DNA of 64,000 bases from an uncultured Bacilli bacterium. GTDB lineage: Bacteria; Bacillota_I; Bacilli_A; RF39; UBA660. The stretch spans positions 1 to 64,000 of the forward strand of contig CANQQV010000010.1 in NCBI GenBank assembly GCA_947626095.1, read 5' to 3'. Numbering within the stretch: the first letter of the stretch is position 1; the number at the start of each line of letters is the position of its first letter. The notes beneath the pieces are model-generated. The model did no database searches, was not told the origin of the DNA, and saw only the letters and a program-made list of their open reading frames with translations. This document shows positions 3,712 through 64,000 of the stretch, in pieces. The translations under genes and the position numbers were made by a program.

Positions 3712-4672
3712 CGTGTAATTCTTCTCCATCCATTGTAAATTTTAAAATAACAGGACTGCCATCAGTGTAGTCTTTCGTTTCTTCAATATCTTTCATAAAA
3801 TCTGCTAGTTCTTGATATTGTTTTACTTCAGGTACTTCCCCATTATGATAGTCCATTAATAGTTTAGGGATTGATGTATTAAAGCCTTGTGATTTTAAGT
3901 ATTCATTTATTTCTTCGATTTTGTATTGACTACAGAAAGGGAAAAGAGATATCGCGTGGTAATTTGGCGTTACAAATATTTCTCTATAATATCTAGTAAT
4001 ATCATAACTACCTTGCATACTTACCACATCTTGACCAATAGTTGCACCGACGCCAAAATCTTTCATCGTTGCTAATGTATAATAGGTTGGTTCATCGCGA
4101 TAATCAAATGTTCTTTTAATATATGTTTTAGAGCAAAATGGTAATTTAATTCCTTTATCTCTTAGTAGAACATGTTTTTCTATTTTAATTTGAAATGGGA
4201 CGCGAGTGTGAAATTCATATATATGTTTACTATTATCATTAATGTTTTGTTGATACATAATTATTGTACGCATATCTTTTTGGGGATTATATTGAACATA
4301 ACTAATTAAGCCGTTATATCCTTCATCATCTGGGCCATTAGGTCTTGCAAAGAAATCTAAGCATTCGGTTAATCCATCTTCACGTCTTTGAAATACTCTG
4401 CGATTACCTTGAGGATGCATTTCATAATCATCAAAAGCGACATCAGCTACTTGGTAATTATCATAAATAGTAAACATTTGGTAGCCGACAACGTTTCCAT
4501 CTAGTTCAAAAATAGTAAATAAGTTATCAACACGATGAAGAATCTTTTCTTCACCATTAATATTTATCTTGTAATAAACACCATTAACACTTTGAAATAA
4601 TTCGTAACATGCTTGAAAGATAGGTTGATATTTTTTGACATCTTCAGATGTTAATTCACCAATTGTTATCAT
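3695..4672 (-). CDS. Conserved hypothetical protein, first of a paralogous pair
   Basis: A 325-residue soluble protein, rich in aromatic residues, with the same layout as its downstream neighbour. The N-terminal third (MITIGELTSEDVKKYQPIF) is predicted as mixed alpha/beta, the middle holds the shared YVQYNPQKD and YEFHTRVPF motifs, and the C-terminal third holds the shared LFPF and LLMDYHNG blocks. It has its own promoter (4696-4724) and GGTGAG before the ATG. The two genes form a small operon made by tandem duplication. The N-terminal part loosely recalls an acetyltransferase-like fold, but no acetyl-CoA motif is visible, so I assign no function. Confidence 0.75.
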   Translation of the reverse strand: MITIGELTSEDVKKYQPIFQACYELFQSVNGVYYKININGEEKILHRVDNLFTIFELDGNVVGYQMFTIYDNYQVADVAFDDYEMHPQGNRRVFQRREDGLTECLDFFARPNGPDDEGYNGLISYVQYNPQKDMRTIIMYQQNINDNSKHIYEFHTRVPFQIKIEKHVLLRDKGIKLPFCSKTYIKRTFDYRDEPTYYTLATMKDFGVGATIGQDVVSMQGSYDITRYYREIFVTPNYHAISLFPFCSQYKIEEINEYLKSQGFNTSIPKLLMDYHNGEVPEVKQYQELADFMKDIEETKDYTDGSPVILKFTMDGEELHDGEDN

Positions 4673-4695
4673 ATTCTCACCAACTTTTAGCGTTT

Positions 4696-4724
4696 ATTAT
4701 AACTTTTTTGGAATAATAAGACAA
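4696..4724 (-). promoter_or_regulatory. Sigma-A promoter of the 4672-2746 gene pair
   Basis: On the minus strand: -35 TTGTCT (4719-4724), 17-nt spacer, -10 TATAAT (4696-4701), about 25 bases before the start codon at 4672. Confidence 0.7.
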
Positions 4725-4730
4725 GAAAAA

Positions 4731-4757
4731 AAGACAAACTTATTAATTATTTGTCTT
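4731..4757 (-). terminator. Intrinsic terminator after the 4762-5088 gene
   Basis: On the minus strand: stem AAGACAAA / TTTGTCTT (4750-4757 and 4731-4738) followed by a T run. Confidence 0.75.
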
Positions 4758-4761
4758 AAAT

Positions 4762-5088
4762 TTAAATTTCTAAATCTTTTAAAATATTTTCGGCCATGTC
4801 ATTGGCATAATTAATGGCTTGTTCTAAATTTTCTTCTTGCGCCAATTCATTTTTACTATATATGGTAATTGATTTATATAACTCTGTAAGATTATCATCA
4901 ATACTTTCGTTTATATCACGATAAAAATCACGAACTTCCATCCATTTGTAATATAATGATTTATTATGATTTTCTAAAATTTTACCTATTTCACCTAAAA
5001 TGGTATCAATTGAATTATCTTCATTAATTTTTTGGCTTTCTACTAGTGGTTCAAGACTATTTAACAATAATTCGGCAGATGACTTCAT
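4762..5088 (-). CDS. Small helical protein, second copy of type A
   Basis: 108 residues, almost wholly predicted helix, acidic, no signal peptide. It is homologous to the protein at 5515-5871: both have a leading LLL segment, a central aromatic block (YYKWMEVRDFYRDI / RRGWEVVSKFFGNI) and the C-terminal block ANDMAENILKDLEI / SNQVAEQILKELGL. It follows a type B gene by 11 bases, repeating the order of the upstream pair. Size and helical content recall WXG100-like proteins or the small helical partners of LXG toxins, but there is no clear WXG motif, so the link to type VII secretion is inference. Confidence 0.7.
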   Translation of the reverse strand: MKSSAELLLNSLEPLVESQKINEDNSIDTILGEIGKILENHNKSLYYKWMEVRDFYRDINESIDDNLTELYKSITIYSKNELAQEENLEQAINYANDMAENILKDLEI

Positions 5089-5099
5089 AATTTATACCT

Positions 5100-5414
5100 C
5101 TAATCTATACTATCATTAATTTTAGCATTAAAATTATTTAAATAATTTTTTGTTTCAGCTAATAATGAGTTATTACCTTCAATTAATTTTGTATAATATT
5201 TATTTAATGAAGAACATATTTCTTTTAAACTTTCTTGCTTATTTAAACTATAGTTACTGGATTTAAAAAAAGAATTAACAATTTCTTGATTTTGAAATAA
5301 ATTAATAAATTTATTTAGGTTTTCGTATTGTTGAACAGATTTTAGTTGAAAGTTAGCTAATAATTCGGTTAGTCTTTCTTTTTCTTCTAGTGTTAGATTA
5401 TCGATATTTTCCAT
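5100..5414 (-). CDS. Small helical protein, second copy of type B
   Basis: 104 residues, mostly helix (MENIDNLTLEEKERL start). It is homologous to the protein at 5911-6372: QEIVNSFFKSS here matches EAIVQSFYSSG there, followed in both by a K-Q-L-K block and a second helix. I chose the ATG at 5414 because AAGGTGAAAGT precedes it; the frame is open to 5474 but that stretch runs into a terminator hairpin. It lacks the Gly/Ser-rich C-terminal tail of the other copy. Function unknown; likely a partner of the type A protein encoded next. Confidence 0.65.
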   Translation of the reverse strand: MENIDNLTLEEKERLTELLANFQLKSVQQYENLNKFINLFQNQEIVNSFFKSSNYSLNKQESLKEICSSLNKYYTKLIEGNNSLLAETKNYLNNFNAKINDSID

Positions 5415-5470
5415 ACTTTCACCTTCTATAATAAGAATACAACAATACTGTTTAAAAAGTCCATAAAAAA

Positions 5471-5505
5471 ACACATATTAGACATTTAACTAATATGAGT
5501 TTTTT
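5471..5505. terminator. Terminator between the two A/B gene pairs
   Basis: Stem CATATTAG (5474-5481) and CTAATATG (5490-5497), with T runs on both strands, so it can act in both directions. It ends the upstream pair, just after the stop at 5515. Confidence 0.7.
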
Positions 5506-5514
5506 TATTTATTA

Positions 5515-5871
5515 TTAAATATTATCTTCATATAAACCAAGTTCTTTTAAGATTTGTTCAGCAACTTGATTAGATTCTTCTACTGCTTGTTGTGCAGCTA
5601 GTTCAGCAGCACGAGTTTCTTCAATAAATCTATTTAAATCTGTTGATAATTCAAATGATAACGAATGGACTCCTTGTTGAATGTTTCCGAAAAATTTACT
5701 AACAACTTCCCAACCACGTCTTAAAGACTCATTTACATCTGTAAACAATTCACTTATAACTCTGGCTGCTTCTGAAGCATCACCTAAAGTTCCTACTTCA
5801 TAATCAGAATCTGAATCACGATCTAATAATAAATCAACTGCAGCTTTTAGTTGTTCAATTGATGAATCCAT
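5515..5871 (-). CDS. Small helical protein, first copy of type A
   Basis: 118 residues, helical, acidic, with an Ala/Glu-rich final helix (AAELAAQQAVEESNQVAEQI). It is homologous to the protein at 4762-5088. A central Trp (RRGWEVVSKFFG) stands where the sister protein has YYKWMEVRDF. Ribosome binding site AAGGAGGG is ideal. It lies 39 bases after the type B gene at 5911. I do not recognise the family; it may form a helical complex with the type B protein, by analogy with other co-encoded small helical pairs. Confidence 0.7.
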   Translation of the reverse strand: MDSSIEQLKAAVDLLLDRDSDSDYEVGTLGDASEAARVISELFTDVNESLRRGWEVVSKFFGNIQQGVHSLSFELSTDLNRFIEETRAAELAAQQAVEESNQVAEQILKELGLYEDNI

Positions 5872-5910
5872 ATTTTCCCTCCTTTTATTGTTTTATTTTT
5901 ATTATAAATT

Positions 5911-6372
5911 TTATTTTGTAGGATTAGACTCATTACTTGCTGGCTCAAAGCCCATTCCTGTAGTATTTGAGCCTGTACTTTCTCCACCAGTAGCAAAGCC
6001 CATTCCTGTAGTATTATCACCATAAGTATTCCAACTTGTTGTATTATTTCCTGATTCAACAGCTGTTCCTTCACTAAGTCTAGTAGTACTACTATCAATG
6101 AATTTTTTTGTTTGACTAATTAAACAATAATCAGCATTACTAATTAAATCCCAATATTTTTTTACTGCTTCAGTAATGTTCTTTAGTTGATTTTGCTTTT
6201 CCTGGCCAAATTTACCAGAAGAATAAAAACTTTGAACAATAGCTTCATTGTTAAAAGAATTAATTACTGTTGTAGTATTGTTATAGTATCCTTCAATAGC
6301 TCTGCTTATTATGTTTAGTTGTCTAGTCATGACTTCTAAATCTTCGTCATTTAATATTTTGCCTGCCGCCAT
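5911..6372 (-). CDS. Small helical protein, first copy of type B, with Gly/Ser/Thr tail
   Basis: 153 residues: about 105 residues of predicted helix, then a disordered tail holding two copies of NTTGMGF. The helical part matches the protein at 5100-5414. The ATG at 6372 follows GGAAGGTGAATAAA and is preferred over an in-frame GTG at 6381. It is the first gene of the B-A-B-A array. The tail is made of a 48-base tandem duplication in the DNA. Function unknown. Confidence 0.7.
   Translation of the reverse strand: MAAGKILNDEDLEVMTRQLNIISRAIEGYYNNTTTVINSFNNEAIVQSFYSSGKFGQEKQNQLKNITEAVKKYWDLISNADYCLISQTKKFIDSSTTRLSEGTAVESGNNTTSWNTYGDNTTGMGFATGGESTGSNTTGMGFEPASNESNPTK
5946..6015. repeat. Direct repeat, 22 bp, within the 5911-6372 gene
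   Basis: The same 22 bases occur at 5946-5967 and 5994-6015, 48 bases apart, so the duplication keeps frame. They encode the repeated NTTGMGF element of the protein tail. Confidence 0.85.
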
Positions 6373-6411
6373 TTTATTCACCTTCCTATTATAAAGAATA
6401 TAACATAATCA

Positions 6412-52177: not shown

Positions 52178-52209
52178 GCATAAAAAAAACAAATAGTTTC
52201 CTATTTGTT
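52178..52209 (-). terminator. Intrinsic terminator of the 52201 WXG gene
   Basis: On the minus strand: AACAAATAG, loop GAAA, CTATTTGTT, then eight T. The TAG stop codon is within the stem. Confidence 0.85.
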
Positions 52210-52512
52210 TCCCATTGCATCTGTAATTTGTGAACCAACTTTAATATCAGCTTCTTCATTACGATTAGTAACTGTATAAATATGATTTTTCATTGTAACA
52301 ACATTACTATAGAATACTTCGTAATTTCTTCTTAATTCTTGATAACGAGCATTTGCTTCTTCAGCTCCACTACTACGCCACCCTTCGCCATATAAGCTGT
52401 TCATTGTTGTATCTATACCATCAAAAACTCCTTGAATATTATCAGCTATTCCTTTGATTGTATCAGCATATGATCTTGCTGATGCATAGTCAGATTGTTC
52501 AAATTCGTTCAT
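52201..52512 (-). CDS. WXG100-like protein, second of a pair
   Basis: 103 residues in the size range of WXG100 proteins: two long helices with the central turn YGEGWRSSGAEEA (a W-R-S instead of W-x-G). WXG100 proteins are exported in pairs by type VII secretion. The upstream gene, 14 bases away, is a similar small protein, so the two may be a heterodimer. No export machinery lies in the window. Confidence 0.78.
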   Translation of the reverse strand: MNEFEQSDYASARSYADTIKGIADNIQGVFDGIDTTMNSLYGEGWRSSGAEEANARYQELRRNYEVFYSNVVTMKNHIYTVTNRNEEADIKVGSQITDAMGNK

Positions 52513-52526
52513 ATAATATTTCCTTT

Positions 52527-52832
52527 CTATTGTTCAAATAAATTTTTTCCCTCTTGGGCATTTTGTTCTTCAGTTTCGTTTAAAGTATTTGCTCCACTTG
52601 AAATTGTTTCTCCTAATGTATTTATTAAGGCTTCAAATTCATTAAGATTATTTACTTGAGCATCTACTGATGTTCCAAAATTATTTGCAGAGTCACCACG
52701 CCAAATATCTAATAATCCTTCTTTATTTCTTTGTAATTGTTCTATTTGATCGTGTAATTGATTTGCATATTCTACTGTTTTTCTTCCTTGTTCATCCATT
52801 ACTTCTGGAGATACATATAGTCCGTTTGCCAT
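52527..52832 (-). CDS. WXG100 family protein, first of a pair
   Basis: 101 residues, helix-turn-helix hairpin with a WXG-type turn LLDIWRGDSANNFG near residue 47. The start at 52832 (MANGLYVSPEVM) follows AGAGG; an ATG at 52841 is too close to it. Co-transcribed with the gene at 52201. Confidence 0.82.
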   Translation of the reverse strand: MANGLYVSPEVMDEQGRKTVEYANQLHDQIEQLQRNKEGLLDIWRGDSANNFGTSVDAQVNNLNEFEALINTLGETISSGANTLNETEEQNAQEGKNLFEQ

Positions 52833-52931
52833 TTTGCACATCCTCTCTCTATTTTATTTATATCATATTTTGATTTGGCTTTAAAGATTTTTTACTTTTT
52901 GTTTACATATTATCTGGGCCTTTTTATCTTA

Positions 52932-53837
52932 TTAGGCTGTTTGCTCTTTTGCGGTGTCTTCAGAATTATTTTCTTTATATAAAATTGATTTAGCTTGTTC
53001 AGTCACTATAGTTTTGGTTTCGGCTTCAACATTTTCTTTTTCATCAGCATCATCTGCTTTTTCATCTTTTGACTCAGTATCTTCTTTAGTGTCAGCTAAA
53101 GTATCTTTGTATTCCTCAAACATCTTCTTTATTGTTTTTTCTTCTTGGTAGCCTTCAAGTTCTTTTAGAACTTTTCCATTTTTTACTAATGATATTGTAC
53201 TTTCTTTATCGGTTGTTTCGACGAAAGTAACTGGAATTTTATTAGCAATAGCAATTTCTGTGACCATAGCGATGTACTCTTGATTTTTTTTTTCTTTACT
53301 ATTTGCTTTGATAACAAGAGTTGTCTGATCTTTGATTTTATCTTCTAAATCTTTTTCTTCGATAATATTAAATAAACCTGCGGTAATTAATGAAGCAAAT
53401 AGTGGAGTTTCAAATAAATTAACTGTTTCTGGTTCAGTTACGACACCACCATAACCTACGTAACCACCATAGCTACTAGAGCCGTTATATCCGCCATTAT
53501 TATTACCATAATTAAGAGAATTATTTTGACTATTTGTTTCTTGAGGATTATTATTTGGTTCTTCACTTGGGCTAGATTCAAACTTCATGCCATTTTGTAA
53601 GTTTGTATGCGATGATACAACGCTTTTTAAAACGTTCATAGTATTAGAGACTTTAGTGGCACATGCATCAAGATTATTAGCTATTGATGTTTTGGCAGTA
53701 GCAAAATCAAAACCATCTTCATTACTTGTATCATAGCCGCTAACGCTATTTTTAGTTTCTTTAACATTGTTTGCGATAGTATTTAGGGAATCAGCTGATC
53801 CAGTTACACTATCTGTATTTAACATGAAAACTGTCAT
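52932..53837 (-). CDS. WXG-like protein with linker and thioredoxin-like domain
   Basis: 301 residues. Residues 1-95 are helical and WXG100-sized; 96-140 form a linker of Asn, Gly, Tyr and Ser (YNGSSSYGGYVGYGGVV). Residues about 170-250 look like a shortened thioredoxin fold: strand TTLVIKAN, helix, strand IPVTFVET, then ISLVKNGKVLKELEGY as in the last strands of thioredoxin. There is no CxxC, so no redox activity is expected. The last 60 residues are very acidic. It is a paralogue of the protein at 55757-56680. The thioredoxin likeness is by eye. Confidence 0.72.
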   Translation of the reverse strand: MTVFMLNTDSVTGSADSLNTIANNVKETKNSVSGYDTSNEDGFDFATAKTSIANNLDACATKVSNTMNVLKSVVSSHTNLQNGMKFESSPSEEPNNNPQETNSQNNSLNYGNNNGGYNGSSSYGGYVGYGGVVTEPETVNLFETPLFASLITAGLFNIIEEKDLEDKIKDQTTLVIKANSKEKKNQEYIAMVTEIAIANKIPVTFVETTDKESTISLVKNGKVLKELEGYQEEKTIKKMFEEYKDTLADTKEDTESKDEKADDADEKENVEAETKTIVTEQAKSILYKENNSEDTAKEQTA

Positions 53838-53860
53838 ATTATTTCCTCCTATTTTATTAA

Positions 53861-54388
53861 TTAATTTTTATTGCTTAGTTTAGGAATTGATTGAGGAGCA
53901 TAAGCACTAATTGCCTCTCCTGAGAAATCAGTTTCAGAAATAGCTGTTGCTGTTAATGTTTTACTAGAAGCTTCATTAAGAGCATTATTTATTTCAGTTG
54001 TTAAATCGTTTTTTATTTGCGTGTAGTCGGTGACCTTTTTCTGCCAACTTGAAATTTCGCTAGAATAATCAGTGGTATATTCACCTTTTTCATTTTTAGT
54101 TCGACTGTTTTGACAATCGTTATAATAATTTAACTTTTCGTTAGCTGTTTTAAGATTGGCTTTGTTTTCTTCATATTCTTTGTATTTATCACAAGCCTTA
54201 GCAAAGGCTTCCATTTGTTCATCAATTGTTGGAAAAAATTCACTTATAAAACTTTGAGTTTGAGATGTTAAACTATCATATGAAGATCCTTGCCATGAAC
54301 CATTAATACTTTCTAATGATGAAGAAAAACTATCTTTGGCTGTAGATATTTTATCTTTATCTCCTCTAACTACATCACTGCTAACCAT
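53861..54388 (-). CDS. WXG-type helical protein of the 'MVSS' type, without enzyme domain
   Basis: 175 residues. N-terminus MVSSDVVRGDKDKISTAKDS, turn NGSWQGSSYDSLTSQ (WXG-type), then long helices to about residue 150 and a short tail. It matches residues 1-140 of the C39-peptidase protein at 57289-58209 (MVSSGTVNGDSQTL, VWQGPSKDNA) but stops where that protein gains its peptidase. Leader gene of the minus-strand half of module 2. Confidence 0.8.
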   Translation of the reverse strand: MVSSDVVRGDKDKISTAKDSFSSSLESINGSWQGSSYDSLTSQTQSFISEFFPTIDEQMEAFAKACDKYKEYEENKANLKTANEKLNYYNDCQNSRTKNEKGEYTTDYSSEISSWQKKVTDYTQIKNDLTTEINNALNEASSKTLTATAISETDFSGEAISAYAPQSIPKLSNKN

Positions 54389-54422
54389 TTTGAATCGCCT
54401 CCTAGATTACCTTCTATAATAT

Positions 54423-54451
54423 ATTTTATCATTCGAATAGAATGTTGACAA
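54423..54451 (-). promoter_or_regulatory. Promoter of the 54388-52932 gene pair
   Basis: On the minus strand: -35 TTGTCA (54446-54451), 17-nt spacer, -10 TAAAAT (54423-54428), 35 bases before the ATG. The -35 hexamer lies inside the first copy of the 11-bp repeat. Confidence 0.75.
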
Positions 54452-54483
54452 TTTTTTTATTTAATAAAATGGATGTTGACAAT
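54442..54483. repeat. 11-bp direct repeat in the divergent WXG promoter region
   Basis: ATGTTGACAAT occurs at 54442-54452 and 54473-54483, 31 bases apart, i.e. three helical turns. This is the only intergenic region shared by the two halves of module 2. It could be an operator; no known regulator is recognised. Confidence 0.6.
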
Positions 54484-54594
54484 AGATAGGTATTTATTTA
54501 CTTTGAGATGTAAAATTTTAGTTCTTTAGGAATATTTATAGCATTTTCTTATTTAAAATGATAAACTGAAAGTAGTAATAATAGGAGGGTATTT

Positions 54595-54882
54595 ATGGCA
54601 AAATATGTATGTGATTTTGAACAAGTCACTTCTATTGGAGATGAAGTATGTAACTTAGTTAGTGATACACGAAGTGCGTTAGATACTTATTCTTCTGGTA
54701 TTGAAAATAATTTATCTTCTTGGTCTGGAGACGCGAAATCAGCATTTTCTTCTACTAGCTCTTCAGTAGTAACGCAAACTAAGACAGATTTGGAATATGT
54801 TACAGCTCTAGGAAATTATATAAAAGCTTGTGCTCAAGCAGTTCAAACGGTTGAAGAGAAACTGACAGAGATGAAAATTTAA
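54595..54882 (+). CDS. WXG100 family protein of module 2
   Basis: 95 residues: two helices around LSSWSGDAKSAFSS (WXG). Nearly the same length and start (MAKYVCDFEQV) as the protein at 58644-58931 (MAKYVCDFDAI). Ribosome binding site AGGAGGG. Followed 17 bases later by the lysozyme-fusion gene. Probably the secretion partner of that protein. Confidence 0.88.
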   Translation: MAKYVCDFEQVTSIGDEVCNLVSDTRSALDTYSSGIENNLSSWSGDAKSAFSSTSSSVVTQTKTDLEYVTALGNYIKACAQAVQTVEEKLTEMKI

Positions 54883-54899
54883 AAGAAAGGAAATGTAAC

Positions 54900-55679
54900 A
54901 TGGCAGATTATGGATTTAGCGATTATGCTATTTTTGATGAAGGTTATGGAACAGTTAATAATTTAAAAGGTAGTTTATCAACAAATACTGATGATATTAA
55001 TAAATGTAAATCCGAATTAAATAGTGAAGCTGTATTTATGGGGCCAATGTGTGATTCATGTGTTGAAGGATTTGATAGTACTAATGCTTTTTTAGTATCA
55101 GTTACTAATAATTTTGATAAAATCGCTTCTTATTTAACGGAAATATCAACAGCTTATAAGAATGGTGATGAAAATGCTTCTAAAAAGATTTTAGGTATTG
55201 AAGGTGGCGTTGTTGAGACTAGGACAAAAACTGTTATAACAGGAGATACAACGCAAGATCAAATATTTAATTATCTAAAAAATGAAGGATTTAATAATGC
55301 TGCTATTGCTGGTATTTTAGCAAACATGGAATATGAGTCTGGATTTAAGACTACTGTATATGGTGATGGGGGAACGTCTTATGGGTTATGTCAATGGCAT
55401 TCAGGAAGATTTACTAATCTTAGAAATTATTGTAGTAATAATGGTCTTGATTATACTTCTGTTGAAGGCCAAATGTCTTATTTGATGTATGAACTTAAGA
55501 ATAGTTATCCTGGTGTTTATAATTATATTAAAAATGTTCCTAATACTAAGCAAGGTGCTTATGATGCCGCTTATAAGTGGACTGTTTCATTTGAAATACC
55601 TGCTAATAAAGAATCTTCAGGAGCAAAACGAGGTAATACTGCTCAATCTAAGTATTGGGAAAAATATGGGGATGCATAG
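54900..55679 (+). CDS. WXG-like carrier fused to a phage-tail-type lysozyme
   Basis: 259 residues. Residues 1-105 are a helical carrier matching the protein at 58209-58628 (AVFMGPMCDSC against TFMGPFADYC). The C-terminal 140 residues follow the phage tail lysozyme family: IFNYLKNEGFNNAAIAGILA, then MEYESGF with the likely catalytic Glu, and GTSYGLCQWH. It should cut peptidoglycan outside the cell. There is no Sec signal, so export through type VII secretion with the upstream WXG100 protein is likely (inference). It may serve wall growth or attack other cells. No immunity gene follows. Confidence 0.85.
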   Translation: MADYGFSDYAIFDEGYGTVNNLKGSLSTNTDDINKCKSELNSEAVFMGPMCDSCVEGFDSTNAFLVSVTNNFDKIASYLTEISTAYKNGDENASKKILGIEGGVVETRTKTVITGDTTQDQIFNYLKNEGFNNAAIAGILANMEYESGFKTTVYGDGGTSYGLCQWHSGRFTNLRNYCSNNGLDYTSVEGQMSYLMYELKNSYPGVYNYIKNVPNTKQGAYDAAYKWTVSFEIPANKESSGAKRGNTAQSKYWEKYGDA

Positions 55680-55712
55680 AATATACTTCTAGCCAATAAA
55701 TTTAAGATATTT

Positions 55713-55748
55713 AAAAAAGCAAATATTTTTCTATTTGCTTTTTTCTTT
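55713..55748. terminator. Bidirectional terminator between converging WXG units
   Basis: Stem AAAAGCAAATA (55715-55725) and TATTTGCTTTT (55732-55742) with T runs on both strands. Confidence 0.8.
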
Positions 55749-55756
55749 TTAGTTTA

Positions 55757-56680
55757 CTATATAGTAGAAGTCTCTTTTTCTTTTGGTGATTCATTACTAT
55801 TTGTTTTATCTTCTTCTTTTTTTTCTTCTGGTAACTTTTCATTATTTGGAGAATCTTCAGTTTTTTCTTCTACTTTCGCTTCATCGGCTTTATCTTCAGC
55901 GGTTGAATCACTTTCATCTGGTAAAGGTTCAATTTCTATTTCTTCATCCTCAACATCGACATTTACTTTATCAAACATTGCTTTGATAGCATCAATGTCA
56001 GTTAGTTCTGTTGTTGAAGCTAAAACAATACCATTTTTAACGATGCATAGAGATGATTCGACATCCTCTTCCTCTTTTTCGTTGATTACTAAATCAATAT
56101 CATATACTTTGGATAGTTCTTCGGCTAGTTCAAGTTTCTCTTTGTAGTTATCATCTTTTTTACTTAAAGTTAGAACTAATACTTTTTCTTTTATCATATT
56201 TAGTTTTTCAATAGTATCTTCTGTAAATAAATCTCCAGCCAATAGTTCTTTTAATACAGCTAAAGAGATTGCGTCAGGCACAAATACTTTACCACTTGGG
56301 CCTGTTACGGTTTCTTCGTTGAATGTTAATCCACTGGCGCCATATGCACCACCAGAGCCACCGCCATAGCCGCCATATCGACCTGATTGGTAGCTAACTG
56401 TTCCGTTGTTAGATTGGCCACCGCCATTAATAGATTCTTGTAATTCTGTATGAGTACTAACAACTTTTTTTAAGTATTGATTTGTTAGTCGAAACTTAAT
56501 ATAAGCGCTAGATACATTAGTAGAAACTGCATCTTTAGCACTGCTAAAATTAAAGCCATCATCATTTTCAACATCGTATTTACTAACACTACGCATAACA
56601 TCACGAGCATTGGTAGAAAGTTCTTTTAATGAATCAGCAACGGAATCTACAGCTCCTGTATCTAAGAGAAATTTGGTCAT
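55757..56680 (-). CDS. WXG-like protein with linker and thioredoxin-like domain
   Basis: 307 residues, paralogue of the protein at 52932-53837. Helical N-terminal domain (1-85; ENDDGFNFSSAKDAVSTNVS), Gly/Tyr/Ser linker (GRYGGYGGGSGGAYGASG), then strand KVLVLTLSKK, helix, IDLVINEK and LCIVKNGIVL in thioredoxin-like order without CxxC, and a Glu/Lys/Ser-rich acidic tail of about 60 residues. No Sec signal. It ends module 1. Role unknown; the acidic tail may serve in export or chaperone binding. Confidence 0.72.
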   Translation of the reverse strand: MTKFLLDTGAVDSVADSLKELSTNARDVMRSVSKYDVENDDGFNFSSAKDAVSTNVSSAYIKFRLTNQYLKKVVSTHTELQESINGGGQSNNGTVSYQSGRYGGYGGGSGGAYGASGLTFNEETVTGPSGKVFVPDAISLAVLKELLAGDLFTEDTIEKLNMIKEKVLVLTLSKKDDNYKEKLELAEELSKVYDIDLVINEKEEEDVESSLCIVKNGIVLASTTELTDIDAIKAMFDKVNVDVEDEEIEIEPLPDESDSTAEDKADEAKVEEKTEDSPNNEKLPEEKKEEDKTNSNESPKEKETSTI

Positions 56681-56697
56681 TATTTTACCTTCTTTCT

Positions 56698-57270
56698 TTA
56701 TTCGTAATGAATATTATCCATAACTACAGTTAAGGCTTTGTCTAAAGTTTTAATTATTTCATCATTATCTAAGTCTTGAACATTTTCTAACAATTTGAAT
56801 CTTTCATTTACAGCATATGGACCTGATGCTATAGATAATTGACAAAATTCATTTGTTTTATCGTTAATAAAGTATGCTGTTATTTGGCGAACAAAGTTTA
56901 ATTTATCCATAGTTCCCAATAAAATATCTTGAAGATAGATTTTAAAAGGAATATTTTCTTTTTGATAAGCTTTAAAATATAGCATACATTTTTTGTTTTT
57001 ATATAATTCATTATTAGCAATAGTATCTTCAATTGAATTATTTACTACTTTTATATGATCTTCAAATGTTTCATCGTCTTTTAAGATGCCATCATTGAAA
57101 AATTGTTCTAAAGTATTTTGATTTTTAGCAACAAAGAAGTTATTTTCATTTTCTTTGCTTTGCGCAACTATTTCAAATCCATCTAGGATAGGAATTATTA
57201 AATTTCCTTCTTCTAATTCTTGATTTGCTTTATTAGCAATATCTAATATTATATCTATTTTATCGTTCAT
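56698..57270 (-). CDS. Protein of unknown function in the WXG module
   Basis: 190 residues, acidic, mixed alpha/beta, no signal or membrane segment (ILDIANKANQELEEGNLIIP; GPYAVNERFKLLENVQDLDN). It lies between the C39-peptidase gene and the thioredoxin-like gene, 17-18 bases from each. Module 2 has no counterpart. It could be a cytoplasmic chaperone for the secreted proteins, as EspG is in mycobacteria, but I see no sequence likeness to EspG. Confidence 0.7.
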   Translation of the reverse strand: MNDKIDIILDIANKANQELEEGNLIIPILDGFEIVAQSKENENNFFVAKNQNTLEQFFNDGILKDDETFEDHIKVVNNSIEDTIANNELYKNKKCMLYFKAYQKENIPFKIYLQDILLGTMDKLNFVRQITAYFINDKTNEFCQLSIASGPYAVNERFKLLENVQDLDNDEIIKTLDKALTVVMDNIHYE

Positions 57271-57288
57271 AATAATTCTCCTTTATTA

Positions 57289-58209
57289 CTAAACAGTGAA
57301 TGAGTACATGGCAGCTTTAGATTCGCGTGCAATTAAGGATGCATCATAAGATCGACCACTTCGATCACGGCTTGCTGGATCGGCGACGATAACACGACCA
57401 TTTTCATCTAAGCCTCTTAAAACAATATAGTGGCCTCCTCTAGTAAAGGTACCAGGTCCCATATGAGCAATAATAACTTTTCCTTCGGAAAGGCTTTGAA
57501 CAATATTCTGAGCAGTAGGACTTTGTTCTTGACATTCTATACCATAGGTACTTGCCATCGCAGGGAATAAAGCAGCATATGTACCATTTCCTTCACAACG
57601 ATAGCCGTGTTGTACACTATAAGCCGATGTGTCTACTGGAGTAATTGTTTCACCTGTTATATAAGTTAAAACCATTGCCATTGATGTTGGACCACAACCT
57701 GAAGAAGCAATTGTTCCACTACGACCATAAGAATAATTACGATAATCACCTTGATAATAGTTAACAAAGTCATTTAAAGTAACCATGTTTTTGTAAGCTT
57801 CGACTGTAGATTCCGCGCTTGGTAATTTTTGAGAAGTAACATTAGATAAAAGGCTATTTATTTCTGATTTTAGACTGCTCATGCGGTCAGCATAATTATC
57901 TATTTGATTACGATAATATGATTTATTTTCTTCTGAGGCACTATAATAACTTGATTCAGCTGATTCTTTTGAAGCTTTGGCTGATTTATATTCTTCGTAT
58001 TTATTTAAAGCATTAGCAAAGTTTGATAATTGAGATATGATTGTCTCTTTATACTCAGAAACGAATTCTGATGACAAATTAGTGGCATTATCTTTAGATG
58101 GTCCTTGCCATACGGAATCGTTATTAACAGAATCCATTTGTGAAGTATAGTTTGAGAATAATCCTTGTAAGGTTTGTGAATCGCCATTTACTGTTCCACT
58201 TGATACCAT
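57289..58209 (-). CDS. WXG-type carrier fused to a C39-like cysteine peptidase
   Basis: 306 residues. Residues 1-140 are helical with the WXG-type turn DSVWQGPSKDNA. Residues about 155-305 are a C39-like papain-fold peptidase: Cys in ASSGCGPTSMAMVL, His in RGGHYIVLRG, and the partner Asp in VIVADPASRD. Such domains (Peptidase_C39_2 type) cleave peptides or peptidoglycan cross-links. It shares TAATG with the upstream carrier-like gene. Export by type VII secretion is likely, as no Sec signal is present. Target unknown. Confidence 0.85.
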   Translation of the reverse strand: MVSSGTVNGDSQTLQGLFSNYTSQMDSVNNDSVWQGPSKDNATNLSSEFVSEYKETIISQLSNFANALNKYEEYKSAKASKESAESSYYSASEENKSYYRNQIDNYADRMSSLKSEINSLLSNVTSQKLPSAESTVEAYKNMVTLNDFVNYYQGDYRNYSYGRSGTIASSGCGPTSMAMVLTYITGETITPVDTSAYSVQHGYRCEGNGTYAALFPAMASTYGIECQEQSPTAQNIVQSLSEGKVIIAHMGPGTFTRGGHYIVLRGLDENGRVIVADPASRDRSGRSYDASLIARESKAAMYSFTV

Positions 58210-58628
58210 TAGACACTACCTACTTTCTCGCCAACATTTTTATCGCTTTCACTGTAAGATTCGCTATTATCGCTTAATACTCGAGCACTTGTATCAAGGC
58301 TAGTATTTGTTGATACAGTTAATTCTGATAAACCATTCCATGTACCATAGCAGTAATCAGCGAATGGTCCCATAAAGGTACTTTCAGTAAAAATGTCATT
58401 AATAACTTTATTACATTCATTAATACTTTCATTTACGTCTTTAACTGCGCTTTCGATATTTTGAACACCACTAGATAAGTCAGTATAATCAGCTTTATAA
58501 TTTGTTTCACCAGTTATGCTAGTATTTTGAGTATTGATTGTTCCAAGTCCTGTGTTGGATGTTAATGAGCTAGTATCCGTACTATTTAGTTGACTATTAT
58601 TACCTAAATTTTCATTTTCTATTGCCAT
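58209..58628 (-). CDS. WXG-like helical partner protein of module 1
   Basis: 139 residues. The first 45 are polar and disordered (Asn, Ser, Thr); the rest is a helical domain with the segment TESTFMGPFADYCYGTW, shared with the N-terminus of the lysozyme protein at 54900. It is the second gene of module 1 and ends in TAATG with the peptidase gene. Probably a partner or co-substrate of the secreted peptidase. Confidence 0.78.
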   Translation of the reverse strand: MAIENENLGNNSQLNSTDTSSLTSNTGLGTINTQNTSITGETNYKADYTDLSSGVQNIESAVKDVNESINECNKVINDIFTESTFMGPFADYCYGTWNGLSELTVSTNTSLDTSARVLSDNSESYSESDKNVGEKVGSV

Positions 58629-58643
58629 ATTTTCACATCCAAT

Positions 58644-58931
58644 CTAAAACTTTAAAGCTGCTAAAGAGTTTTCGGCTTCTTCTATTTTCCCAACACTATC
58701 TTTAATATAGTTAGACATCTGTCTCATTGTTTCTATTTGTCCTTGTAAATTAGTAGTTATTGCATCACTACTATTTTTATAGCTTTCAGAGGCACGGCCA
58801 GTCCAACTTACTAAATCGGAGTCTAATTTACTTTTTTGAGATGTTACATTACCATTTAAATTTGAAAGTTCACGATCTAAAGTATCACAATAAGATCTAA
58901 TCGCATCAAAATCACATACGTATTTAGCCAT
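58644..58931 (-). CDS. WXG100 family protein of module 1
   Basis: 95 residues, two helices around LVSWTGRASESYKN (WXG). Paralogue of 54595-54882. First gene of a five-gene operon (58931 to 55757) with its own promoter. The ribosome binding site is weak (AAAGATAG). Confidence 0.88.
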   Translation of the reverse strand: MAKYVCDFDAIRSYCDTLDRELSNLNGNVTSQKSKLDSDLVSWTGRASESYKNSSDAITTNLQGQIETMRQMSNYIKDSVGKIEEAENSLAALKF

Positions 58932-59072: not shown

Positions 59073-60404
59073 ATGTTAAAAAACAAGAAGGTTTTTATTC
59101 TAGGAATGGCTAGAAGTGGTTTTGAAGCTGCTAAGTTAATTGCTAGAGATAACAAAGTACTAATTACCGATATGAAAGAACAAGATAAAAAACAAATAAA
59201 TATTCTTAGTGATTTAGGAGTTAAATTTGTTTTAAGTGATAATCCTGTTGACTTATTAGATAACAGCTATGATTTAGTTATTAAAAATCCTGGTATAAAG
59301 TATGATCATCCAACAGTAGTAAAAGCAAGAAATTTAGGAATAAAAGTTATTAATGAAGTAGAGCTCGCTTATGAATATTTAGATAAAGGAGTTAAAGTAA
59401 TTGGTGTTACTGGTTCTAATGGTAAAACAACGACTGTAACACTTATTTATAATATTTTAAAAACAGATGGTAAACCAGTATGGTTAGGAGGAAATATCGG
59501 GACACCGTTATGTAATTTTGTTAAAGATATCAAAAAGAATGATATTTTAGTTATGGAAATATCTGATCATCAATTATGTGATATGTATGATTTTAAAACA
59601 AATGTTAGTGTCTTAACAAATATATATGAAGTACATACGGATTTTCATGATTCACATGAAAGATATGTTAAAACAAAATTAAAGATATTTAATAATCATA
59701 CGAAGGATGATATAGCAATCATTAACTATGATAATAAAGAGGCTGTGAATAATACAAAAGATATTAACAGTACAAAGTATTACTTTTCAAAAGAAAATCA
59801 ACAGAATGTTTATTTGAATAATAATGTAATATATTATAAGGGAAAAAAGATTATTGATATCGATGAGATTATGTTAAAAGGAGAACATAATTTAGAAAAC
59901 ATTATGGCAGCAATTAGTGTCGTTAAATTATTTAACGTCAGTGATAGTAGTATTGTTAAAGTATTAAAAACATTTGGTGGTGTAGAACATCGAATTGAGT
60001 ATGTTAGAACAATTAAAGGTGTTAGTTATTATAATGATGCTAAAGCAACAAATTGTGAATCGACTAAAACGGCTTTGAAGTCATTTAAAGAACCAATCTT
60101 ACTTATTTTAGGTGGTTTAGATAGAGGCCATAGCTTTGAAGAATTAAATGAAGAGATGGTTAATGTCAAAGAAGTGGCTTGTTATGGTGAAACTAAGATG
60201 AGAATTAAAGAGTATTGTGATACAATAAATAAGCCTTGTGAAGTTTTTGATAACTTGGAACAAGCAACAAGATATTTAATTAAAAGAGCTAAAAAAGGTG
60301 ATATTGTATTATTAAGTCCGGCTTGTGCTTCATGGGATCAATATGAAAAGTTTGAAGATCGTGGTGACGAGTTTAAAGGAATTATTAATTCAATTAAGGA
60401 GTGA
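59073..60404 (+). CDS. murD: UDP-N-acetylmuramoyl-L-alanine--D-glutamate ligase
   Basis: 443 residues. Adds D-Glu to UDP-MurNAc-L-Ala in the cytoplasm. ATP loop GVTGSNGKTTTVTLIY, then EISDHQLCDM (common form is SSFQL), HR in GGVEHRIEYV and NDAKATNCESTKTAL. Pairs with murC 6 bases downstream; the division-wall cluster genes usually near murD are absent. Confidence 0.95.
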   Translation: MLKNKKVFILGMARSGFEAAKLIARDNKVLITDMKEQDKKQINILSDLGVKFVLSDNPVDLLDNSYDLVIKNPGIKYDHPTVVKARNLGIKVINEVELAYEYLDKGVKVIGVTGSNGKTTTVTLIYNILKTDGKPVWLGGNIGTPLCNFVKDIKKNDILVMEISDHQLCDMYDFKTNVSVLTNIYEVHTDFHDSHERYVKTKLKIFNNHTKDDIAIINYDNKEAVNNTKDINSTKYYFSKENQQNVYLNNNVIYYKGKKIIDIDEIMLKGEHNLENIMAAISVVKLFNVSDSSIVKVLKTFGGVEHRIEYVRTIKGVSYYNDAKATNCESTKTALKSFKEPILLILGGLDRGHSFEELNEEMVNVKEVACYGETKMRIKEYCDTINKPCEVFDNLEQATRYLIKRAKKGDIVLLSPACASWDQYEKFEDRGDEFKGIINSIKE

Positions 60405-60410
60405 TAACTC

Positions 60411-61784
60411 ATGAATATTAAAGATTATAAAAATATTTATATGGTAGGTATTGGTGGTATCAGTATGAGTGGTATTGCCGAAATACTAAAAAAATGGAAT
60501 TACAATGTCTGGGGATCAGATTGGTCTAAATCTAGTCAGACAGATTGGTTAGAGAATAATGGTATTAAAGTAAATATTGGACAAGTAAAAGAAAATATTA
60601 CTAAGGACATTGATTTAGTTGTTTATACGGCAGCGATTAAGCAAGATAATCCTGAGTTAGTTAGAGCAAGGGAACTTAATATTCCAACTGTTGAAAGAGG
60701 AGATTTTTTAGGAGAACTAACTAAATTATTTAAAGATACAATTGGAATTGCGGGAACTCATGGTAAAACTAGTACAACAAGTATGGTGTCTTATTCTTTC
60801 TTAGAAGCTAATTATGATCCATCTATTCAAGTAGGAGCTAATTTAAAGGTATTAGATGGTAATTATCGTGTTGGTAATAGTGATTATTTTGTAATTGAAG
60901 CTTGTGAGTACTGTGAAAGTTATTTAAGATTTAAACAAAGAAGTGCAATAGTTTTAAATATAGATGATGATCATTTAGACTATTTTAAGAATATTGACAA
61001 TATTAAAAAGAGCTTTGAAAAGTATGTTTCATTACTACCTAGTGATGGTTATTTAGTATTAAATCGTGATGATGAAAGATGTTATGATTTAAGAAAGAGC
61101 ACTAAAGCTCATGTTATTACTGTTGGCAAGGATAATAAAGCTGATTGGTATTATGATAATGTTAGTTTTGATGATGATGGCTATCCTACCTATGAAGTTT
61201 ATTATAAAGGAGAATTAAAAGGGAAGATAACTTTAAGAGTAACTGGATTACATAATGTTTTTAATAGTTTGTGTTGTATTGCTTTATGCGATGCTTATGG
61301 TATCGATATTAAAATAGTAGCTAAAGCATTGCTTAAGTATGATGGTGCTTCAAGAAGACTAGAATATAAGGGAATGCTTAATGGGGCGAAAGTATATGAT
61401 GATTATGGACATCATCCAACAGAGATCAAAGCGACAATAATGGGTATTAAAAACAAAAAATATAACGAATCTTGGGTTGTATTTGAAGCTCATACTTATA
61501 GCAGATTAATGGCTCATTTAAAAGAGTTTGCTGAAAGTTTAATACATTTTGATCATATTATAATTGTTGATATATATGCAGCTAGAGAGGTTAATACTTA
61601 TAATATTAGTGAAGATGATTTAATAAAAGAAATAAATAAATTAGGTAAGGAAGCTATTCATATTAGTGATTATGACGAAGTTATTAAGTATTTAAAAGAG
61701 AATGTTAAAGAAGGAGATTTAATTTTAACATTAGGTGCTGGTAATGTTACAAAGATTGCAAATAAAATAAAAGAGATGAATTAA
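60411..61784 (+). CDS. murC: UDP-N-acetylmuramate--L-alanine ligase
   Basis: 457 residues. First amino-acid ligase of the stem peptide. N-terminal MVGIGGISMSGIAEI, ATP loop GIAGTHGKTSTTSM, and DDYGHHPTEIKATIMG. Ends with the stop codon in the loop of the terminator. Confidence 0.96.
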   Translation: MNIKDYKNIYMVGIGGISMSGIAEILKKWNYNVWGSDWSKSSQTDWLENNGIKVNIGQVKENITKDIDLVVYTAAIKQDNPELVRARELNIPTVERGDFLGELTKLFKDTIGIAGTHGKTSTTSMVSYSFLEANYDPSIQVGANLKVLDGNYRVGNSDYFVIEACEYCESYLRFKQRSAIVLNIDDDHLDYFKNIDNIKKSFEKYVSLLPSDGYLVLNRDDERCYDLRKSTKAHVITVGKDNKADWYYDNVSFDDDGYPTYEVYYKGELKGKITLRVTGLHNVFNSLCCIALCDAYGIDIKIVAKALLKYDGASRRLEYKGMLNGAKVYDDYGHHPTEIKATIMGIKNKKYNESWVVFEAHTYSRLMAHLKEFAESLIHFDHIIIVDIYAAREVNTYNISEDDLIKEINKLGKEAIHISDYDEVIKYLKENVKEGDLILTLGAGNVTKIANKIKEMN

Positions 61785-61803
61785 ATTAATCATCTCTTTT
61801 ATA
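61766..61803. terminator. Shared terminator of murC and the glycohydrolase gene
   Basis: Stem AAAGAGATGA (61770-61779) and TCATCTCTTT (61790-61799), with the murC stop codon in the loop. It lies between converging genes and has T-rich flanks on both strands. Confidence 0.8.
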
Positions 61804-62617
61804 ATGCTTTATTGTTATTTTCAGATATATTTACACTTTGATTAAATTTTTCTAAGCATGTTTTAACTTCTGGATCTAAAAAGCTTAATGCTCTTTCTTT
61901 TATTTCTTCAGGAATACCAAAAAAGCTTTCGGCAATTGATCCGGTCATACAGGCTAAGGTATCAGCATCTCCGCCTAAACAAATAGCGTTTCTTATTGAA
62001 TCTTCAAAATCTGTTCCTTCTAAAAATGATTCTATTGCTTGGGGAACTGAACCAGCAGCACTAATATCATATTTATATTTACGATGAATAGCAGGAATTG
62101 TAAAATCTAATTGATAAAAATTATCTTCAATGTATTTTCTAATATCCTCTTTTGTCGCACCATTTCGGGCTAAAAAAATACATGCAGCAATGGCTTTTGC
62201 ACCTTTTATTCCGTCTGGATGATTATGAGTTATAGAACATTGGGCTTCAGCTAATGTTAAAGCTTCTTCAAGAGTGTCGGCAACATAGGCGACTGGTGCA
62301 GTACGCATCGCGCCACCATTAGCATAACTATTGTAAGGACCCATTTTTTCATCTTGTAGCCAATCAAAGAATCTATAACCATATCCAGCATCGGGATACT
62401 TATTTCCTAATCGTCTCATTTCACTTTCGGCAACTTTTTTAAATTCTTCGAGATTTTTTGTCTCTTTGTATTTTATACAGGCTAAGGCAATAGCGCAAGT
62501 CATTACTGTATCATCGGTAAAAAAGCATCTATCTTTAAAAAATTTAAATTCTTTTTGTTTAATAGTTCTAAATTCATATACAGAACCAACTATATCACCA
62601 ATTATTGCTCCATACAT
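61799..62617 (-). CDS. ADP-ribosylglycohydrolase, probable immunity protein
   Basis: 272 residues, ARH/DraG family. Metal-binding motifs are intact: TDDT at 34-37, GGAMR in the middle, and GGDADTLACM near the C-terminus. These enzymes remove ADP-ribose from modified residues. It overlaps the 109-residue gene by 16 bases and follows an ADP-ribosyltransferase toxin domain. By analogy with the Tre1-Tri1 pair, it probably protects the producer by reversing the toxin's modification (inference). Confidence 0.9.
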   Translation of the reverse strand: MYGAIIGDIVGSVYEFRTIKQKEFKFFKDRCFFTDDTVMTCAIALACIKYKETKNLEEFKKVAESEMRRLGNKYPDAGYGYRFFDWLQDEKMGPYNSYANGGAMRTAPVAYVADTLEEALTLAEAQCSITHNHPDGIKGAKAIAACIFLARNGATKEDIRKYIEDNFYQLDFTIPAIHRKYKYDISAAGSVPQAIESFLEGTDFEDSIRNAICLGGDADTLACMTGSIAESFFGIPEEIKERALSFLDPEVKTCLEKFNQSVNISENNNKAL

Positions 62618-62931
62618 AGACTTTTCTCACTTTCCTCTGGCGAGAGATATTTAGTAAAATCTTCGATATCTTCGTTGTTAAAATATATTTTTTGCAATTC
62701 ATTATTTCTTTTGACTAATCCTTGATAGTCATAAAATACTTTATTATATATGGCATATTTGTGTTCGATAATTACTTCTTCGCCAGAAAGTAATTTTACA
62801 ATTGTTCCATTAGGAATGTGAGGTTTAGCAGTAGCATCTTCTATTTGCTGTACGTCAATACCTTCACCTTTAAACTCTGAAATATCAGTTTCAAATCTTT
62901 CTAAGTTTTTATTTGGTTCTAAATTATCCAT
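62602..62931 (-). CDS. Small acidic protein between toxin and glycohydrolase
   Basis: 109 residues, no signal peptide. The N-terminal third is acidic and probably flexible; the middle has beta strands (GTIVKLLSGEEVIIEHKYAI). It starts just after the stop of the toxin gene with the site AGGAGGCGAATAAG. It could be a second immunity factor or a chaperone. Family not recognised. Confidence 0.7.
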   Translation of the reverse strand: MDNLEPNKNLERFETDISEFKGEGIDVQQIEDATAKPHIPNGTIVKLLSGEEVIIEHKYAIYNKVFYDYQGLVKRNNELQKIYFNNEDIEDFTKYLSPEESEKSLCMEQ

Positions 62932-62932
62932 C

Positions 62933-64000
62933 TTATTCGCCTCCTGTTAATAAACATTTTACCACAGTTACAAGTTGTTTCCCATTCATTTTTTCTTGCT
63001 TTGGTGGAGCTATTATTGTTAGTTTTGTTCCAGTTCCAAGTAAAACTTCATTTTGATAATAAGTTGTTACGCCAGATAACGGTTCAATATATGCAGCGTT
63101 ACTGTTAGCGGGAACAATAATGTCAATTCTTATTTTGCCACCTGAAGGGGATGCAGCAAAGAAATTACTGATGTCTTCGACTGATGATGTAGTACTAAGG
63201 AAAGCATCATTTTGTAATTCCATTCCAACTTTTAAATCTTTTAATTTTCTAGCACCATTAAAATCTGTCGCCATACGGCTAACAGTGATAGTTTCACCAA
63301 TTCTATTATTATTTATAAGTTCAGTTAATTGACTAGCATTATGAACCGTAGGATCATATACGACACTATCGCCAAAAGTATCTTTAAATAATCTTGTATA
63401 TAGTTCCTTAATTTGTTCATCATATGGTTTTGTGCTATCGTAAAGATCACTGCTTCCCATAATATTTATATATAATTTTTTCATTTGCTCTTCACTAGCT
63501 TGAACTCCTGGTGAACTAGCCTTAACTAAACTGCATCCAGTCATTGATTCAGTATATATTCTAACCATATCTTTTTGAGCAGGAGTAGCATTAGCTATTA
63601 ATCGACTAACGTATCCATTATTATAATCATCCATTAGTTTATTTAATGTTGCAGCATCATCGTCAGATAAATATTTAATAATTAAATTAGAATAGCCTAA
63701 AATATCAACATCTGAGTTACATTTGGGAAGATTTTTAACTATACTCCATATTTCGTCTAATTCTGATTGACTTTTTTTGGTAAATTGTAATATTTCATAA
63801 AATTCTTTATGAAATGCTCCTTCTGTTGAATTGTTTTGCCAAGCATTAGTAGCTGCTTTAGATAGTTTATTTACTAGGCTTTGACTTAAACCGAATTTAT
63901 CTTTTAATATTCCATTTGTTAAATCATATAGCTGTGGAGCTGGTGTACCAAATAAAGCTCCAACACCCGCTCTTGAAGATAATTGAGTTATATCAATGCC
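62933..64000 (-). CDS. ADP-ribosyltransferase toxin, C-terminal part
   Basis: The frame is open without interruption from the stop at 62933 to the right edge, so the start lies outside the window; a Met at 63634 is internal. The last 180 residues form an ADP-ribosyltransferase domain of the R-S-E class: Arg in TVSRMATDF, the STS-type motif in DAFLSTTSS, and YYQNEVLLGTG, which gives Gln-x-Glu as in C3-like enzymes. The upstream part is helical and may link to a delivery domain. The following glycohydrolase supports a toxin role. The target is unknown; QxE often, but not always, goes with Asn, Gln or Arg/Thr modification depending on the group. Confidence 0.85.
   Translation of the reverse strand, partial: GIDITQLSSRAGVGALFGTPAPQLYDLTNGILKDKFGLSQSLVNKLSKAATNAWQNNSTEGAFHKEFYEILQFTKKSQSELDEIWSIVKNLPKCNSDVDILGYSNLIIKYLSDDDAATLNKLMDDYNNGYVSRLIANATPAQKDMVRIYTESMTGCSLVKASSPGVQASEEQMKKLYINIMGSSDLYDSTKPYDEQIKELYTRLFKDTFGDSVVYDPTVHNASQLTELINNNRIGETITVSRMATDFNGARKLKDLKVGMELQNDAFLSTTSSVEDISNFFAASPSGGKIRIDIIVPANSNAAYIEPLSGVTTYYQNEVLLGTGTKLTIIAPPKQEKMNGKQLVTVVKCLLTGGE

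Follow-up and report, generated by a model that had tools for sequence, protein, structure and literature searches.

Can the small helical partner proteins of a type VII secretion system (T7SS) also serve as mounts for wall enzymes? This question is raised by a stretch of 64,000 nucleotides from an uncultured Bacilli bacterium (GTDB lineage Bacillota_I; Bacilli_A; RF39; UBA660; contig CANQQV010000010.1 of assembly GCA_947626095.1, positions 1 to 64,000), referred to here in its full length as the window. A set of eleven genes at 52201..58931, flanked by an rplI/dnaB side and a murD/murC side (flanking genes named by eye), contains two modules of WXG100-type proteins in which the enzyme is fused to a different member. 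A sequence-only reading of this DNA had proposed that either of two carrier proteins can take an enzyme and that the module may be a general delivery platform for wall hydrolases. Our computational analysis of the locus and its relatives indicates that the set is probably a modular cargo set of a T7SS, that is, an export platform with three carrier families.

All open reading frames (ORFs) were found at the positions claimed in the earlier reading. Module 1 lies on the minus strand, where each gene starts at its higher coordinate, and comprises the WXG100-type helper A1 (58644..58931, 95 amino acids (aa)), carrier B1 (58209..58628, 139 aa), carrier C1 (57289..58209, 306 aa), the alpha/beta protein E1 (56698..57270, 190 aa), and carrier D1 (55757..56680, 307 aa). 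Module 2 is split into divergent halves, as had been noticed: the helper A2 (54595..54882, 95 aa) and carrier B2 (54900..55679, 259 aa) are on the plus strand, and carriers C2 (53861..54388, 175 aa) and D2 (52932..53837, 301 aa) are on the minus strand. It holds no copy of E, which in module 1 is placed between C1 and D1. The set is completed by a minus-strand WXG100 pair past module 2, W1 (52527..52841, 104 aa) and W2 (52201..52512, 103 aa); this pair and E were absent from the earlier description. C1 ends in a Peptidase_C39_2 domain (PF13529, 5.5e-19, residues 149-279) and B2 in a Phage_lysozyme2 domain (PF18013, 1.1e-35, residues 118-252), and Pfam detected nothing enzymatic on B1, C2, D1, or D2. 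The claimed arrangement, a C39-like peptidase on the third protein of module 1 beside a bare second one and a phage-tail lysozyme on the second protein of module 2 beside a bare third one, was therefore confirmed. Cys172, His260, and Asp277 of C1 and Glu146 of B2 (ESGF), which we take to be catalytic motifs, were present. D1 and D2 combine a helical hairpin with a C-terminal domain that lacks CxxC in D1; the predicted local distance difference test (pLDDT) of the D1 model was 63.8 overall and about 77-88 within this domain, and the name "thioredoxin-like" was given by eye, from the order of the secondary structure elements read from the model.

The four pairs of proteins claimed as paralogues proved to be true paralogues. 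Pairwise local alignments compared with 300 shuffles gave z scores of 19.5 for A1/A2, 13.7 for B1 and the N-terminus of B2, 16.6 for the N-terminus of C1 and C2, and 27.0 for D1/D2, and in each pair the observed score was equalled by 0 of the 300 shuffles. The same test detected no paralogy between W1 and W2 (z 0.2). In profile-profile comparisons using single-pass family profiles from the window and its relatives, the probabilities were 0.3% for B-C, 3.5% for C-D, and 2.1% for B-D, indicating that B, C, and D are separate families; the pairing of the two modules thus exceeds generic helix similarity. A was related to W1 (97%) and to D (91%), and W2 to B (88%), so that A-B has the appearance of a duplicated W1-W2 pair. 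Matches to the WXG100 family PF06013 were above the cut-off for W1 (1.5e-09) and W2 (2.1e-06) and below the curated cut-off for A1 (3.3e-05), which was also recognized by the A profile, A2 (4.6e-05), B1, C1, and C2; at an E-value threshold of 10, B2, D1, and D2 did not match PF06013.

Related genomes contain the same families in combination. After 12 repeats had been removed, 42 distinct loci remained, the window included. Loci were counted as module loci when a carrier was accompanied by two types of helper, or when two types of carrier were accompanied by one type of helper, which yielded 28; the other 14 (L057, L065, L082, L084, L085, L087, L088, and L091-L097), weak or orphan, were set aside. 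The 28 module loci, mostly from Bacilli metagenome-assembled genomes, hold 95 carriers in the three families, contrary to the possibility that the families never occur together in relatives. Within the genus, a search with D1 had matches in 8 of 16 genomes; the D profile matched 7 of 338 family genomes, and the C profile matched 13 of the 385 genomes sampled from the order. Among 346 genomes sampled at class level, the D profile matched the window's own genome alone. A W2 scan of one genome per species over 84,980 species, which was seeded by two short peptide patterns and is not exhaustive, gave 24 loci, all from records titled as uncultured genomes. The record titles named Bacilli, Bacillales, Erysipelotrichaceae, Firmicutes, or Tenericutes for 22 of these and "uncultured bacterium" only for the other 2.

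The C-terminal domains fused to the carriers of the 28 loci included many different enzymes. Cargo was classified by Pfam for representatives of each class and by local profiles or phmmer for the remainder. The 33 B carriers bear Phage_lysozyme2 (10), Glucosaminidase (6), C39 (4), CHAP (1), or an unknown domain (1), and 11 are bare. The 32 C carriers bear C39 (11), NlpC/P60 (9), esterase/S9-like (5), CHAP (2), or unknown (1) domains, and 4 are bare, and the 30 D carriers bear NlpC/P60 (7), thioredoxin-like (7), CHAP (2; one of them, in L054, called by phmmer at 1.7e-06 alone, with nothing from Pfam), C39 (1), or unknown (13) domains. An M23 peptidase was present on two C carriers beyond the module loci (L082 and L087). 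The peptidoglycan-hydrolase domains (B2, NlpC, CHAP, and glucosaminidase) were above the Pfam cut-off and contained catalytic motifs, some regular-expression read-outs of which missed or matched the wrong place. In L055, the C39 on D has no Cys motif and may be inactive. The proposal that either carrier takes an enzyme therefore held in that B and C are variously armed, but there are three carriers, D included, and the choice is not either/or: module 2 of genome G011 has a lysozyme on B and an NlpC/P60 domain on C together. Likewise, a general platform for wall hydrolases agrees with the variety of the hydrolases, but is too narrow for the esterase/S9-like and thioredoxin-like domains, and for C39 domains, which need not act on the wall.

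Enzyme domains appear on unrelated carriers. Within single loci, the NlpC domains on C and D were 77% (L086), 78% (L071), and 70% (L052) identical over 133-135 residues, despite the lack of relationship between the C and D hairpins, indicating that enzymes move between carriers. In L089, the C39 is on B, E follows directly behind, and C is bare; this B-borne C39 is 63% identical to the C-borne C39 of L062. Sister B hairpins in L071 and L086 bear either a lysozyme or a glucosaminidase. In the NlpC tree, in which only 4 of 13 inner branches were starred, the carrier label was about as mixed as under shuffling, needing 5 changes compared with 5.5 for shuffled labels.

The modules are compact. Among ORFs of at least 60 aa within the 28 modules, 186 of 189 belong to the seven families, and 143 of 151 pairs of same-strand neighbours lie within 100 bases of each other, with a median gap of 15 bases. 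The three remaining ORFs are an antisense ORF in L050, which covers the place of W1 and probably masks it there, and two proteins with an MGFS tag in L053 and L056. In these two loci, proteins that start with MGFSxKPIDVxxPK or similar adjoin the module and carry C39_2 or leucine-rich repeat and transglutaminase-like domains; their N-terminus is a second N-terminal type next to the WXG carriers. On contig C11 of the window's genome (L029:4476-8719), 477- and 493-aa proteins with similar N-termini are followed by four small WXG100-like ORFs. A single helper set (A, W1, and W2) accompanies one to six carriers. Six well-matched C carriers without local helpers (L082, L084, L085, L087, L088, and L091) occur in genomes that have a module elsewhere (G171, G498, and G000); that of L091 (7540-8604, contig C9) is a third C-like carrier of the window's genome, with an NlpC/P60-like domain and no local helpers. 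Hydropathy indicated a membrane-like stretch in 1 of the 186 family ORFs, within an apparently over-long W1 start, and no signal-peptide-like stretch on the carrier-fused hydrolases; the staphylococcal wall hydrolase EssH reportedly carries a signal peptide.

In the polymorphic toxin scheme, the cargo is on one protein and is accompanied by an immunity gene. No recurrent immunity-like gene was detected beside any enzyme among the ORFs of at least 60 aa in the 28 modules, and in this respect the modules differ from polymorphic toxins; the sole recurrent extra gene, E, goes with C39 alone. These results count against the idea that the set is a type VII polymorphic-toxin system delivering wall enzymes to rival bacteria, as does the lack of an LXG match (E 10) in the ten window proteins scanned. 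Such an antibacterial role is nevertheless conceivable. WXG-type N-termini with exchangeable C-termini correspond to the layout of T7SS toxins as outlined in PMC10765036 and PMC3482391, arrays that pair glycan cutters with peptide cutters (L071, L073, and L086) look lytic, and the lysozyme domain is similar to the lysozymes of phage tails (90 phage records, none reaching 60% identity). About equally likely, and with the same reserve, the exported hydrolases may open or remodel the producer's own wall, as described for EssH and the staphylococcal machine (PMC13059805). The lack of detected immunity genes fits this role, as do the wall synthesis genes nearby (MurD/MurC-like ORFs at 59073-61784, named by eye). 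However, the cargo turns over fast and can comprise as many as six different enzymes in one locus, which exceeds a housekeeping need, and the module is present in 7 of the 338 family genomes (D profile) compared with 163 for the ATPase EssC, indicating that the machine does not depend on the module.

E was present in all 13 module loci containing the main C39 clade (clade 1) and in 0 of the 15 others; clade-1 status was assigned by tree, and L085, whose C39_2 match is below the cut-off, was not counted. E adjoins the C39 gene in 12 of the 13 loci and is one gene away in L053. The C39 domains next to it are borne by C, by both C and D (L055), by B (L089), or by a non-WXG N-terminus (L056), indicating that E follows the enzyme and not the carrier. 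The B-fused C39 domains of L073, L079, and L083 belong to another clade and have no E. The AlphaFold2 model of E1 (pLDDT 89.6; predicted template modeling score, 0.83) has the element order H-EEE-H-EEEE-H; no Pfam, NCBIfam, or PDB family was found for E1, and the E sequence profile had no significant relative in the PDB (best 0.019). We favour the reading that E, acting in the cytosol, would inhibit or help to fold a protease that could do harm there; no such factor would be required by hydrolases with a substrate outside the cell. It is less likely that E is a targeting chaperone for the carrier, similar to EspG or EsaE, and not a partner of the C39 enzyme. A predicted globular alpha/beta protein next to T7SS-type substrates would suit that function, and EspG-like folds have been predicted for EsaE, YfjC, and TscG in the passages of PMC10765036 and PMC11217815 that treat them, but E tracks C39 across every type of N-terminus listed above and is missing wherever a module locus lacks clade-1 C39. 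E domains also occur outside the module, as the C-terminal halves of 309-374 aa proteins (L098, L099, L100, and L102) or nearly alone (L101 and L103); L098 and L099 also contain ATPase-like ORFs that resemble coupling proteins by eye. E as the exclusive partner of C39 was rejected, since E members exist elsewhere without C39.

A secretion machine for the carriers was sought elsewhere in the genome, as the sequence-only reading had advised. The window's genome contains two EssC proteins above the TIGR03928 cut-off, on contigs C2 and C5. EssC was above the cut-off in 28 of 29 carrier genomes and in 163 of 338 family genomes; Fisher's test of 28/29 against 157/331 gave 5e-8, a value that mixes sampling schemes. 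In L064, a 1542-aa EssC directly follows W2. Gene content thus supports type VII export of the carriers. ORFs of 85-93 aa, the size of EsaB/YukD, lie beside EssC in L026, L028, and L064; they had no Pfam YukD match, and the likeness was judged by eye. A few small genes from one EssC, on contig C5, is an ADP-ribosylglycohydrolase (L028:374-1351, PF03747, 1.9e-71), in addition to the one in the window described below.

The following scheme would account for these observations. W1-W2 and A would be small WXG100-type helpers, and B, C, and D would be three different carriers, each with a helical hairpin, that take part in the export complex and can also hold an enzyme at the C-terminus. Enzyme domains would be swapped among the carriers, and bare carriers would often be retained, presumably since assembly continues to depend on the hairpin. 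Once assembled, the set would leave the cell via EssC, the ATPase encoded at another place in the genome, and the enzymes would act outside, mainly on peptidoglycan, with E as the cytoplasmic partner (inhibitor, folding, or targeting factor) of one C39 clade. A bolder version, which we offer tentatively, is that the set represents a new class of type VII substrate, in which one A-W1-W2 set builds a helical shaft on which B, C, and D are interchangeable mounts, several different enzymes exit as one wall-digesting particle, and recombination in the linkers trades enzymes between the unrelated mounts.

Several observations weigh against the export-platform scheme. A or W1/W2 is missing in 6 of the 28 loci, two of which (L051 and L066) are at or near contig ends. 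The carriers have cargo preferences, which limits exchange: lysozyme and glucosaminidase occur on B only, NlpC/P60 and esterase-like domains never occur on B, and the esterase-like domains of the module loci are confined to C. E was found in 9 of 338 family genomes, and six further members in five genomes had no C39 found nearby; five of these six are extended at the N-terminus (four of 309-374 aa and one of 202 aa). Within the family sample alone, EssC was present in 6 of 7 genomes compared with 157 of 331 (p=0.059), and G342, which has a weak module-like set (L057 and L092), gave no EssC match. EssB (PF10140) was above the cut-off in 0 of 8 module genomes, with a weak match in 1 of the 8 (16.9 bits; cut-off, 27.4), and in 1 of 14 control genomes; judged on EssB alone, the machine is not a standard T7SSb, and it is probably of a non-T7SSb kind such as those treated in PMC11217815. 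Moreover, the 28 loci share kinship, and the counts are not independent.

The two modules of the window are separate old lineages according to the trees. B1, C1, and D1 grouped with loci of the genus, whereas B2, C2, and D2 grouped with module 2 of G011 (support of 98/97 for B, 100/99 for C, and 98/93 for D). A recent tandem duplication as the origin of module 2 was rejected on these groupings. Four genus relatives (L045, L046, L047, and L049) have one run of seven genes, A-B-C-E-D-W1-W2; in the window and in G011 (L048), module 2 is inserted between D1 and W1, suggesting that one W1-W2 pair may serve both modules. C2 is the sister of the NlpC/P60-armed C of G011 (L048_5229) and tracks its sequence into the linker, where it stops. 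An enzyme was most likely lost at C2; alternatively, one was gained in G011.

Two further gene groups were observed in the window. Approximately 3 kb beyond module 1, a minus-strand row of three genes (61799-63634) encodes a protein with an ADP-ribosyltransferase exoenzyme domain (62933-63634, PF03496, 5.4e-11), a 109-aa protein (62602-62931), and an ADP-ribosylglycohydrolase (61799-62617, PF03747, 2.2e-34). At 2746-6381, also on the minus strand, small-protein pairs of 124/156 and 108/118 aa and a 325/327-aa pair look like paralogues by eye; the three proteins scanned (5911-6381, 5515-5871, and 3695-4672) had no significant Pfam match, and the group is possibly another duplicated secretion-type set.

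The module resembles several known systems. Like the LXG toxins and paired Lap proteins of Streptococcus intermedius (TelA-D; PMC10765036), it combines a helical N-terminal export domain, a variable C-terminus, and adjacent small WXG100-like partners; however, in that system one LXG protein bears the cargo and the partners are bare, whereas here three carrier families bear cargo, without an LXG match or detected immunity genes. The Staphylococcus aureus EsaD cluster, as summarized from PMC10653861, likewise encodes a cargo protein together with a globular partner and several small helical ones, but EsaD alone bears cargo there, whereas the partners are armed here and E is tied to C39. A type VII system with a wall hydrolase of its own also occurs in S. 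aureus, whose T7SSb has the CHAP enzyme EssH (PMC13059805); in contrast, the hydrolases described here belong to multi-gene sets, in which they are fused to WXG-type hairpins. The T7SS variants c to j, as covered by the part of PMC11217815 used here, similarly have an EssC-type ATPase without the full T7SSb set and WXG100-related proteins by candidate substrates; the main text of that paper does not contain the words hydrolase, NlpC, lysozyme, peptidase, Bacilli, or Erysipelo. Polymorphic toxin systems share an N-terminal trafficking domain with shuffled C-terminal domains, and in the relevant table of PMC3482391, Tox-NLPC/P60 is listed with the type VI secretion system, PVC, and TcdB/TcaC, not with T7SS. 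Like the earlier reading, which knew of no described system with such a layout, we found no account of wall enzymes on several WXG-type partners in the open literature, most subscription papers lying outside the search.

In known type VII effectors, as portrayed in the sources drawn on here, a single protein bears the cargo and its small partners carry none; in the present set, the partners also serve as mounts. This would make testable the export needs of a type VII complex, the exit of folded multi-enzyme sets, and the passage of substrates through a thick wall. The natural variation, with one enzyme on B, C, or D and one carrier either bare or armed, is a ready-made set of experiments, and the hosts are uncultured gut Bacilli, a large group about whose interactions little has been learned.

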